Source: Candidatus Edwardsiibacteriota bacterium (GTDB lineage Bacteria > Edwardsbacteria > AC1 > EtOH8). Taken from it: a DNA stretch of 64,000 bases. Position numbers and translations under genes: made by a program. Position 1 is the stretch's first letter. Each line of letters begins with the position of its first letter. Shown piece by piece: positions 59,064 to 64,000 of this stretch. Location: the NCBI GenBank assembly GCA_020053305.1, contig JAGVNJ010000019.1, positions 1 to 64,000 of the forward strand. Direction: 5' to 3'. The notes beneath the pieces are model-generated. The model saw only the letters and a program-made list of their open reading frames with translations, made no database searches and was not told the DNA's origin.

Positions 59064-60076
59064 CTGAGAACAACGATGGTGTTGTTTATTTTAAAGATCC
59101 TCTGGATATTCCCGAAGGATGGGACGATCTGGCTTGGGATGCCCGATTGTTCAACTCCGTGATATTTTTGCGACATTTACACCTTACGAATAGGGTTGGT
59201 CAGAAATATTTCTTCAGGAACGAGGCTGGCCGCCTTGCTTTGGCGGGTTCTCTTTACCGGACGGTGCTTCCGTTCCGCCTGGGCCCGGCTTGCTTCGGAG
59301 CGCCGGTTTCCGTATGCGGGGTGCCGATGGTGTATGGCAGTCAAGCCGGGTTTGCTCCATTGAAGAACGTACAAGAATCGGCCCAGGTGATGGACAATGC
59401 CTGGCCGGGGTTTCAAATTATAGCCGGTTTGGAGGATAGGACCGAAGGTATCCCTGGTTGGTCTTGTAAAAGATATCTGATTACGGTCGATTTCAATGTC
59501 CGTTGGAAGGATTTCGGAGGATATGTGGAATCAATGAGATCCGATTACCGCAAGCAGGTGGTGGGATCATTGCGAAAGTGGCAGGGGGTGAAAAAAGAGA
59601 TAACCCAGGGTTGCGGTTTCAATAACGATGATTATCGAATGTTTCTTGATATGTACAAGACCGCCAAGGACCAAAGCAAGCCATTGGGGATAGATTTTTT
59701 CCGAAATACGCCCGTGGAACATCAATATATAAAATCATCTTACGAAGATAAAAATCTGGGATGGTGCCTGCTGCTGCCGGAGGGCGGCACCCTGCATCTC
59801 CTGTATTTAGGCTATGAAATAACCCTTAATAACAGATTTGATGTTTACATCAATCTTTTGCTGGAATCCATAAGATATGCAATTGAAAACGGGTACAAAA
59901 AACTGAGAATGGGACAGACCGCTGAACTTATCAAGATGCGTCTGGGTGGAGTTCCAGCTGAACGGTATATCCTGGTCAGGCATACCAATCCCCTGGTCAA
60001 TCAGATAATAAAACGAACCGACATATTCAACTTTAGGAAACACTACCCGCCTTTGCGGGTGTTTAAAAGCGGATGA
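59060..60076 (+). CDS. FemAB/GNAT-fold acyltransferase-like protein
   Basis: ATGA overlap; SDYRKQVVGSLRKW, ESIRYAIENGYKKLRMGQTAELIKMRLGG. Confidence 0.68.
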   Translation: MTENNDGVVYFKDPLDIPEGWDDLAWDARLFNSVIFLRHLHLTNRVGQKYFFRNEAGRLALAGSLYRTVLPFRLGPACFGAPVSVCGVPMVYGSQAGFAPLKNVQESAQVMDNAWPGFQIIAGLEDRTEGIPGWSCKRYLITVDFNVRWKDFGGYVESMRSDYRKQVVGSLRKWQGVKKEITQGCGFNNDDYRMFLDMYKTAKDQSKPLGIDFFRNTPVEHQYIKSSYEDKNLGWCLLLPEGGTLHLLYLGYEITLNNRFDVYINLLLESIRYAIENGYKKLRMGQTAELIKMRLGGVPAERYILVRHTNPLVNQIIKRTDIFNFRKHYPPLRVFKSG

Positions 60077-62181
60077 AAAAGTTTTTATCTAAAATTCACC
60101 GGCCATGCTTTTCATGGCAATGGGCTGTCGCTTTCGTACTGGTGACGGGCTTGGTCCTGGCCGCCGCCATCTATCCGGCCTCGGATCCCGACCTGTACAT
60201 CATGCTGGCCACCGGGAGGCATGTAGTCCAGACCGGCCAAGCCCCCACGGTGGACCTGTGGAGTCATACCGCCTACGGCCAGCCCTGGCCCATGCATGAA
60301 TGGCTTTCCAGTCTGTTGTTTTATGGCCTGTTCCTGCTGTGGGGCGTTAACGGGATAATACTTTTCAAAGCCGCCTTGCTGGCCCTGGCTTTCGGGCTGG
60401 CATTGTACACCATGAAGCTGAAGGGGGTGGCGCCGTCCATTGCTTTGATCACCGCAGCGCTGGCCCTGCTGGCATCCAGTTACGGGTTTGGAGAGCGGAT
60501 CCAGATACTGGCCTTCTTTTTTTTGATCCTGCTTATATTCTGGCTGGAGGTCAACCGGGCCGGAAGGCTCGGGTATCCGGTATTTTTATCGGGCATTATG
60601 GCGCTGATGATCCTGTGGGCCAATGTTCACGTGACCTATGTGTTCGGCATCTTCATCATCGGGCTGTATCTTTTTGACGAATTCATCGCCGCCTTCCGAA
60701 AGAAAGCTTGGGGCTTAATCGTAAAACCGGCCGTGTCCTTTGTGGCGGCATTTGCCGTCACCGGGCTTAATCCTTACGGATTTGACAACCTCTGGCTGAC
60801 CTTGACCTATTACTTCCGGCCCGAAATGCAGAAGGCCGACGCCCAGATATACACCAGCCTTGTGGAATACCAGCCGTTGTTATCTCCCGGCTTCTCCCGG
60901 GAGTCATTGGTGATATCTGGGCTGATATGGATCGTATTTTCATTTGCCGGGATATTACTGGGCTGGAAAAGGCTGAAATTCTCATTCGTCATCCTCTGGA
61001 CATTATTTACCTATTGGGCAGTGGGCTATGTGCGCTTTTTATGGCTGCAGGTGTTCATCACCCTGATCGGGGTGGGATTCCACTGGCAGGGGGCAGGGGA
61101 GGCCTTGAGTTCAAAGTTGAAAGTTGAAAGTTCAAAGCTGAAAGTGTCGGGCAATGCGATATTTGCCATATCTGTTGTGTTGATCCTGCTTGGGGCCGGA
61201 CTGTACCAGCGGACCGGGAAACATATCTGGCAGAGGGTGGAGCTGGGGTGGAAGCCCCGGATGCATTCCGACCAGGCGGCCGGTTTTATCAAACAGCACC
61301 GGAACGGCGGGAAGGTCTTCAACGATTTTGATATAGGCGGCTACTTGCTGTGGAAGGAGATCCCGGTGTTCGTGGACGGCCGGATCGGGCCCTATTTCGG
61401 CACCGAGATATTGCCGGATCACTTCAGGATACTGAGCGGCGATCTGGACCTGCTGGACAAATACGGCATCGACTGGCTTTTTTTGCCCTATGCCAAGACC
61501 AGCCAGACAGAGGATTTCGACCGGTTCAATAAAAAGATCGTTTCTGCCGGAAATTGGGCGCTGGTCTTCTGGGATGACGCCTGCCTGGTGTATGTTCGCC
61601 GAACGGAAAAATACAGGGAAATCATCGAACGATACCAGTACCGGCATGTCAACCCGGCAGTCCCGGATTTCAGCCTGGAACCGAAATTGTTTCTGGGCGA
61701 ACTGACCAGAAGAATCGCCGAAGATCCGGCCCTGCTGATGCCGCACACCCTGGCGGGGAATTTTTTCTTCCACCATAACGATGCCAAGATGGCCGAGCAG
61801 GAGTTCCAAAAGGTCATAAAGATCGATCCATATAACGCGATGATGTATAATAATCTGGGCAATGCTTATTTAAGGCAGGGGAGGGTGGAGCAGGCCGTCG
61901 AATCGTATAAAAAGGCGGTCAAAATTGACGTGAACCTGGGGCTGGCCTATACCAATTGGGGCTATCTGATGGAGGCCAAGGGGGATATAAAGCAGGCGGT
62001 CAAGCTATATACCATTGCCACCAAGGTGACGCCGGGAGATGCCTGGCCGTACAATCGCCTGGGGATAATCGAGATGAAACGGGGCAACCGGGAGAAGGCC
62101 ATCGGCTATTGGAAGAAAAGTGTGGCCATCGACCCATCATCGGAGGCGGCTAAATACTTGCATGAATATTTTAGAAGATAA
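60073..62181 (+). CDS. polytopic membrane protein with C-terminal TPR repeats (copy 1 of tandem paralogs)
   Basis: SDPDLYIMLATGRHVVQTG, WPMHEWLSSLLFY, FNDFDIGGYLLWKEIPVFVDGRI; TPRs. Confidence 0.88.
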   Translation: MKKFLSKIHRPCFSWQWAVAFVLVTGLVLAAAIYPASDPDLYIMLATGRHVVQTGQAPTVDLWSHTAYGQPWPMHEWLSSLLFYGLFLLWGVNGIILFKAALLALAFGLALYTMKLKGVAPSIALITAALALLASSYGFGERIQILAFFFLILLIFWLEVNRAGRLGYPVFLSGIMALMILWANVHVTYVFGIFIIGLYLFDEFIAAFRKKAWGLIVKPAVSFVAAFAVTGLNPYGFDNLWLTLTYYFRPEMQKADAQIYTSLVEYQPLLSPGFSRESLVISGLIWIVFSFAGILLGWKRLKFSFVILWTLFTYWAVGYVRFLWLQVFITLIGVGFHWQGAGEALSSKLKVESSKLKVSGNAIFAISVVLILLGAGLYQRTGKHIWQRVELGWKPRMHSDQAAGFIKQHRNGGKVFNDFDIGGYLLWKEIPVFVDGRIGPYFGTEILPDHFRILSGDLDLLDKYGIDWLFLPYAKTSQTEDFDRFNKKIVSAGNWALVFWDDACLVYVRRTEKYREIIERYQYRHVNPAVPDFSLEPKLFLGELTRRIAEDPALLMPHTLAGNFFFHHNDAKMAEQEFQKVIKIDPYNAMMYNNLGNAYLRQGRVEQAVESYKKAVKIDVNLGLAYTNWGYLMEAKGDIKQAVKLYTIATKVTPGDAWPYNRLGIIEMKRGNREKAIGYWKKSVAIDPSSEAAKYLHEYFRR
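61110..61144. repeat. in-frame heptanucleotide array TTCAAAG TTGAAAG TTGAAAG TTCAAAG CTGAAAG
   Basis: Five 7-bp units encoding SKLKVESSKLKV. Confidence 0.85.
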
Positions 62182-62212
62182 CAGAGTGTCAGCCCGACAT
62201 AGAGTAATTTTA

Positions 62213-62257
62213 ACAGGAATAGCTTGGCTTAAGCTGTTACACCTGAAGAATTCCTGT
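62213..62257. repeat. nested inverted repeats ACAGGAAT/ATTCCTGT enclosing AGCTT-GGCTT-AAGCT
   Basis: Read directly in the gap between tandem paralogs. Confidence 0.5.
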
Positions 62258-62356
62258 CATTAAGCGTAAGTGTCTTTTTATAAGGCTTATGTTGAAAAAT
62301 ATAGCCCAAGCTGTTAATTGGTTTTAATCATTCATTTGGGATTTACCGGGACTTGC

Positions 62357-64000
62357 ATGAACGAAAATAAAGCAAAAATAGTTAATAGCCGTTGGCTTAT
62401 TGTAGCAGTGGTATTGGGATTATTGGTCCTGGCAGCCGCCATCTATCCGGCCTCCGACCCCGACCTGTACATCATGCTGGCCACCGGGCGGTACGTGGCC
62501 CAGACCGGCCAGGCTCCCACAATAGACCTGTGGAGCCATACAGCCTACGGCCAGCCCTGGCCGTTCCACGAATGGCTTTCCAGCCTGCTGTTTTACGGCC
62601 TGTTTCTGCTGTGGGGCATTGGTGGCATTGTTTTATTCAAGGCGCTGGCCCTGGCCCTGGCCTTTTTCCTCGGCCTGCAGATCATGCGGTTGAGGGGGGC
62701 ATCGCCTTTTACCGCCCTGTTGTCCTCGGCCCTGGCCCTGCTGGTGCTGAACCATGCTTTTGCCGAGAGGATCCAGGTGATCAGCTTTGCATTCTTTCTT
62801 TTATCGCTTTACCTGCTGGAGCTTTTCCGCTCCGGCCGGATAAAAAAATGGATATTCCTGGCAAGCTCGGCGGGGATGTTCGCGGTTTGGGCCAATTTAC
62901 ATCTGGGCTATATCATCGGCCTGGGGCTGTATGGGTTAACCCTGATAGACGGATTGCATGCCGGAATAAAAAACAAGGAGTGGGGTCTTCTAAAATGGTC
63001 GGCGGCCGCATTCCTGCTGGCTTTATTGGCCACGGGGATTACCCCCTACGGCTTCGGGTTAACCACAGACATCTTAAAGATTTTTACCGATACGGCTGCC
63101 AAGGATTTTGACATATTCATCTGGAAAACCGTGTTGGAATATCAGCCGCTTTTATCCCCGGGCTTCTCCCGGGAACCGTTCGTCATTTACGGCCTTATCT
63201 GGTTGGCTTTTTCGGGCCTGGGCTTGGCGCTTAATATTAAAAAGACCCGGCTCTCGGAATGGCTGCTGTACATGGTTTTTGTTTATCAGACTTATTGGGT
63301 CACCAGGTACCTGTGGTTTTTGGTCTGGCTGTCATTTCCCTTTACGGCAGTAAACTGGCAGAAGGCTTTTAATAGCTTGAATTCAAAATTCAGAATTCAG
63401 AATTCAAAATATAAGATATCCGGCAGTGTAGCCTTGACCATCTTGATGCTGTTTATTCTGGTTGGTGCGGCGCTGTTCCAGCGCAGCGGGCAGCACCTGT
63501 GGCAGAGGATGAAATTGGGCTGGCGGCCCCGGATGAACTCCGAACGGGGGGTGGAGTTCCTTAAACAGCACCGGGGGGGAGCGAGAGTCTTCAATGATTT
63601 CGATATCGGCGGTTACCTTTTATGGAAGGAGGTTCCGGTTTTTGTAGACGGCCGGATTACCCCCTATGTGAACACCCAGGTGATGCAGGACCAGTTCCGG
63701 ATCTTCGGGGGGCAGCTGCAGCTGCTGGACAAATATCAGATAGACTGGATATTTCTGCCCTACAGCCTTACCGGACAGGTGGCCCAGTTCGAGGCCTTCA
63801 ACCGCTATCTGATAGACAGCCGGAACTGGGCGCTGGTCTTCTGGGACGACGCCTGCCTGATCTATGTCCGGAAAAGCGAAAAATATCGGGATTTGATCCG
63901 GGCCAATAGTTCCCCGGTCAATCCGGCCCTGCCCGATCTGAACCTACCGCCGGAAATATTTTTAAAGGATATGGAGGCCAAGCTAAGAGGGGACCCCAAA
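62357..64000 (+). CDS. polytopic membrane protein, tandem paralog (copy 2), 3' end beyond window
   Basis: Open frame from ATG 62357 to window end (548 codons, absent from ORF track because no stop): NPDLYIMLATGR-type start SDPDLYIMLATGRYVAQTG, FNDFDIGGYLLWKEVPVFVDGRI. Confidence 0.9.
   Translation, partial: MNENKAKIVNSRWLIVAVVLGLLVLAAAIYPASDPDLYIMLATGRYVAQTGQAPTIDLWSHTAYGQPWPFHEWLSSLLFYGLFLLWGIGGIVLFKALALALAFFLGLQIMRLRGASPFTALLSSALALLVLNHAFAERIQVISFAFFLLSLYLLELFRSGRIKKWIFLASSAGMFAVWANLHLGYIIGLGLYGLTLIDGLHAGIKNKEWGLLKWSAAAFLLALLATGITPYGFGLTTDILKIFTDTAAKDFDIFIWKTVLEYQPLLSPGFSREPFVIYGLIWLAFSGLGLALNIKKTRLSEWLLYMVFVYQTYWVTRYLWFLVWLSFPFTAVNWQKAFNSLNSKFRIQNSKYKISGSVALTILMLFILVGAALFQRSGQHLWQRMKLGWRPRMNSERGVEFLKQHRGGARVFNDFDIGGYLLWKEVPVFVDGRITPYVNTQVMQDQFRIFGGQLQLLDKYQIDWIFLPYSLTGQVAQFEAFNRYLIDSRNWALVFWDDACLIYVRKSEKYRDLIRANSSPVNPALPDLNLPPEIFLKDMEAKLRGDPK
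63381..63415. repeat. in-frame heptanucleotide array ATTCAAA ATTCAGA ATTCAGA ATTCAAA ATATAAG
   Basis: Five 7-bp units encoding NSKFRIQNSKYKI. Confidence 0.85.

Follow-up and report, generated by a model that had tools for sequence, protein, structure and literature searches.

Related bacteria keep heptamer arrays at fixed positions in many essential genes, with units that differ by species and a reading frame that stays unbroken

Two tandem homologous genes in the window (the whole 64-kb stretch of DNA analysed) carry different arrays of a 7-nt unit at the same position of the protein. How can one position hold two different repeats of the same form? The preliminary description offered two answers: insertion at a hotspot on two occasions, or the rewriting of one array with its structure kept. 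The two genes encode homologous multi-TM proteins with TPR tails, and their features are as follows.

60073..62181, + strand: copy 1, host gene of array 1; ORF of 702 aa, multi-TM, with C-terminal TPR repeats (TPR Pfam matches)
61108..61145, + strand: array 1, AGTTCAA AGTTGAA AGTTGAA AGTTCAA AGCTGAA AGT, coding for SSKLKVESSKLKV (TRF, lag scan, codon shuffle)
62357..64000, running on to ~64450 on the contig, + strand: copy 2, host gene of array 2; ORF of 697 aa, homologous to copy 1
63380..63414, + strand: array 2, AATTCAA AATTCAG AATTCAG AATTCAA AATATAA, coding for NSKFRIQNSKYKI (TRF, lag scan, codon shuffle)

TRF assigned period 7 to both arrays, and a lag scan found them to be the sole clusters in the 64-kb window with a lag-7 identity of at least 19/28 (24/28 in each). 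In the heptamer register, array 1 consists of five units (61108-61142) followed by AGT. Both arrays are in frame and lie immediately N-terminal of the last predicted TM helix. The description of two five-unit, in-frame, period-7 arrays at a matching protein position before a TM helix was thus confirmed by TRF, lag scan and ORFs. A structure model sets the array in a predicted coil between two helices, at low confidence (pLDDT 54). Among 1000 random synonymous re-encodings of each array peptide, none reached 24/28 (p=0.001 each). The A-B-B-A-C order of units reported for both arrays is present. Units 1 and 4 are read in one codon phase (AGT/AAT TCA A..), however, so some of its symmetry can stem from the protein or from chance. 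The ortholog array in G001 has the pattern ABABA, in contrast to the two window arrays.

Orthologs of copy 1 were found in G003 (82%) and G002 (74%), and of copy 2 in G001 (88%), G006 (75%) and G008 (77%). Arrays occupy the same codons in both ortholog groups, with a unit type that differs by species: AGTTGAA, AATTCAA and AATTAAA among copy-1 orthologs, and AATTCAA, AGTTCAA and AATGCAA among copy-2 orthologs. The G008 copy-2 ortholog has ~90 nt of other sequence inserted at the array position. The array is absent from a third paralog family and from the G009 homolog. Orthologs encoding the same peptide in non-repetitive DNA would have pointed to conservation at the protein level only; the orthologs instead have differing peptides and repetitive DNA. 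Since they keep position, and usually codon register, with a different heptamer, rewriting in place is supported and two independent hotspot insertions are unnecessary. Of the two answers first proposed, the rewriting of an array with its structure kept therefore fits the unit switches seen within both ortholog groups and at about ten other loci.

Those other loci belong to a dispersed family of arrays. Pattern searches of mostly draft assemblies from the bacterial family of the source genome found similar arrays, of about five heptamers and ~35 nt each, in at least 26 host genes, a hand-listed count that includes the two window genes. The discovery patterns were AATTCAR-like and the array counts are accordingly biased to AATTCAR. 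Dispersed arrays far exceeded a reversed-pattern control, which gave few matches. They were mostly intragenic and in any codon phase, and all confirmed coding cases were on the sense strand; the coding status of weak hosts was judged by ORF length. The location mainly outside genes, known from cyanobacterial heptamers, does not hold in this family. Among the hosts identified through Pfam or a clear motif are LeuRS, CCA-adding enzyme, thymidylate kinase (TMK), dihydroorotase, GuaA, FtsY, aspartate-semialdehyde dehydrogenase (ASADH), HypE, ROK kinase, KdtA and glycosyltransferases, with MoaC and CoaE recognised by eye only. In these ordinary proteins the elements occupy tolerant loops, hairpins and termini.

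The periodic span is narrow between species, with a median of 32 nt and a maximum of 42. Units are A-rich with the frame AATNNAR, and the sense strand of coding arrays is free of stops. Because 7 mod 3 = 1, all codon phases of a 7-nt unit yield one and the same cycle of seven residues (e.g. NSEFRIQ), and a unit read alike in all frames offers a simple route from repeat DNA to a protein loop. The opposite strand of common units contains stops, so selection would explain the sense-strand bias. Conserved RNA structure was considered as the trait being kept and rejected: fold z-scores for five arrays ranged from -1.4 to 1.0, with no stable fold.

Some arrays lie outside confirmed genes. One of AATACAG type sits between two genes in three species (L290:1456-1490, L296:1451-1478, L299:1433-1460), where its last unit gives an AGGAG ribosome-binding-like motif right before the next ATG. 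Arrays of AGTT type in G000 (L109:2558-2585) and G003 (L117:2572-2599) have a common downstream flank with TAAAAGCCTGTCACACTGAGA.

Orthologs of the hosts were gathered with array-masked protein queries from ten family genomes and several outgroups. Lag-7 identity reached at least 18/28 at 73 of 106 family sites and at 0 of 21 outgroup sites. When sites that fit the discovery pattern were left out, 40 of the remaining 73 were still period-7, against 0 of 21 in outgroups (p=1.5e-6), and at control lags of 5, 6, 8 and 9 at most 2 sites passed. The orthologous sites were again period-7 with other units, namely AATGCAA, AATCAAA, AATTTCA, AATTCGA, AACTCAA, AAGGCAG, AATACAG and AATGGGA, and the unit type switches between species at about ten loci besides the window gene pair. 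All three codon phases occur between loci, and register is near-constant within each (LeuRS 8/8, HypE 8/8, TMK 5/5, GuaA 4/4). At LeuRS, HypE and ASADH, almost every family member examined has the array. It is missing in some lineages, as for GuaA and KdtA in genus g1 and for TMK in G000, G003 and G008. The element is probably older than the split of the species at several loci. In the G007 LeuRS gene (L234) the array and part of its flank are tandemly duplicated in frame, giving TVEFRILNSELRIQVFTTRP twice.

Several heptamer arrays contain or adjoin a second dispersed element (TTGTCCTGAGC...CGAATGGA / CCCTTCGRC..GCTCAGGGCAAG), nested in frame, at L107 (G000 LeuRS), L241 and L237 (FtsY), L293, L134 (ASADH) and L075 (the G008 copy-2 ortholog). 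Family genomes hold 1-23 copies each of its core, CCTTCGRC..GCTCAGG, vs ~0 in the control.

Close species indicate how the arrays change. Between the sister species G006 and G008, the LeuRS, GuaA and FtsY arrays are 94-97% identical, and the CCA-adding enzyme, HypE, KdtA and ROK kinase arrays have switched (49-69% identical). Flanks are 87-95% identical and broadly alike for kept and switched arrays. Over eight species pairs, mismatch per nt in switched pairs fell from 0.28 over the four codons nearest the array to 0.18 over the four beyond them and then to ~0.14, the background. The excess divergence thus ends within ~12-24 nt (4-8 codons) of the array. Arrays of close species were often either near-unchanged or replaced, a bimodality that is only suggestive because identities, which range from 0.44 to 0.97, include some intermediates at 0.79-0.83. 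Unit type was weakly tied to locus (p=0.01).

Switching, constancy of register and confined divergence together support the view that an old element is rewritten in place and in register. We consider it probable that arrays 1 and 2 belong to a dispersed element, in frame and some five units of 7 nt long, whose sequence is turned over in place, with short-patch replacement helped by slippage as the favoured route. An array would exchange its heptamer for another as a whole, yet stay at its position, at about its former length and usually in its codon register, presumably through selection for an open frame. Replacement would occur when a related array anneals; the AAT..A. frame would let different arrays pair in register, and slippage within the array would assist. 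Loops of 7 nt would exceed the size for efficient MutS repair. Loss of mismatch repair was rejected as a cause, as MutS and MutL domains were found in all ten genomes. Several observations weigh against the favoured explanation. Resident arrays acting as donors predict likeness within a genome, and none was observed (0.743 within vs 0.740 between, p=0.56); genome-wide concordance of unit type, as from a single donor or one recognised sequence, is rejected by the same comparison. The exact copy-1 21-mer has no second copy in the source genome, the intermediate identities in close pairs fit replacement less well, and discovery was biased to AATTCAR. A stronger version is rather doubtful: a dedicated process would draw arrays from a common pool and copy them in register over the resident ones, into in-frame sockets at set places in housekeeping genes, with flanks untouched. 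If true, loops of essential proteins would be rewritten as modules.

In-situ concerted evolution could possibly account for the data by itself, with point mutations in units spread by replication slippage, frameshifted lengths removed by selection and no exchange between loci. The common unit vocabulary would then reflect stop avoidance and tolerated peptides. The absence of concordance within genomes agrees with this, as do mixed arrays, composed of blocks that differ in unit type (two types per array), and the greater likeness of adjacent than of distant units (0.82, 0.78, 0.73 and 0.63 at lags 1-4), a trend that array edges inflate (p=0.05 for interior units only). However, several loci are wholly switched between sister species with flanks 87-89% identical, and like units turn up in other phyla as well as in a non-coding intron. 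Homogenisation would also have to leave array length unchanged, since any net change by one or two units shifts the frame. Templated short-patch replacement and slippage-driven homogenisation may both act. That each lineage instead received its own array at a preferred or tolerated loop is improbable: the lineages lacking arrays at GuaA, KdtA and TMK and the nested second elements landing at array positions would fit such insertions, but one codon register is held across genomes despite different unit types, and arrays are near-universal at LeuRS, HypE and ASADH among the members examined. Least probable is convergence of loops that need an amphipathic NSxFxIQ-like peptide, with the DNA repeat a by-product of codon choice. 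Many array peptides do have an alternating hydrophobic pattern in common. Yet synonymous re-encoding seldom yields the observed lag-7 identity (p<=0.005 at 60 of 106 sites), the peptides differ widely (NAKCKMQ, NQKSKIK, KAEGRRQ), outgroup orthologs do without the array, and none of the orthologs was seen to carry the same peptide in non-repetitive DNA.

In-place rewriting means that tandem-repeat turnover acts inside essential, conserved proteins with the frame unbroken. Annotation would otherwise take the array loops for conserved or lineage-specific protein features.

For switching, the nearest parallel among known systems is the P6b stem-loop of the Nostoc/Calothrix trnL(UAA) group I intron, with heptamers at one fixed position where class I TDNGATT repeatedly replaced class II NNTGAGT between relatives, probably by whole-region replacement (PMC4476775). 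The family arrays likewise undergo class replacement at a fixed position, and the reverse complements ACTCANN and AATCNHA fall within their unit vocabulary. The intron offers one locus in a non-coding paired RNA stem, whereas the family arrays occupy many coding loci with no conserved RNA structure; these many parallel loci allow tests of an old question, raised for one cyanobacterial intron, namely how heptamer repeats change their type. Closest in size and unit are the class 3 multicopy sites of Geobacter metallireducens, five tandem heptamers of consensus MTYCTGA (PMC2700814); read from the opposite strand, this consensus covers AATTCAG in rotated form. The sites are described as putative binding sites of a regulator that occur in pairs on opposite strands, and the available text reports no in-frame coding role or switching (PMC2700814). 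Rickettsia palindromic elements are also short, dispersed and in frame in unrelated housekeeping genes (PMC10969869), as are our arrays in at least 26 hosts, but they are ~150 bp and palindromic, whereas the arrays are ~35 nt (span <=42 nt) without inverted repeats. TAACTGA heptamers of Beggiatoaceae (PMC4679880) and GGGAATC of Xanthomonas/Nostoc (PMC4692102) have a dispersed 7-nt unit in few copies; they are mostly or preferentially non-coding with one unit type per family, whereas the source-family arrays are mostly coding with many types per position. Compared with STRR-like heptameric repeats, the arrays share tandem, dispersed 7-nt units and differ in not being mainly intergenic. A literature search of partial coverage found no report of in-frame heptamers in housekeeping genes, nor of many coding loci with unit switching.

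Related arrays also occur outside the family. G010 (L260:1494-1549) has an in-frame mixed array of AATTTAA, AATGCAA, AATCAAA and AATTCAA in a long ORF, valyl-tRNA synthetase-like by eye. Two other genomes, G038 and G049, have dozens of AATCNAA arrays, and some of those in G049 (L273, L286) are paired at short distance in inverted orientation and might fold into hairpins.
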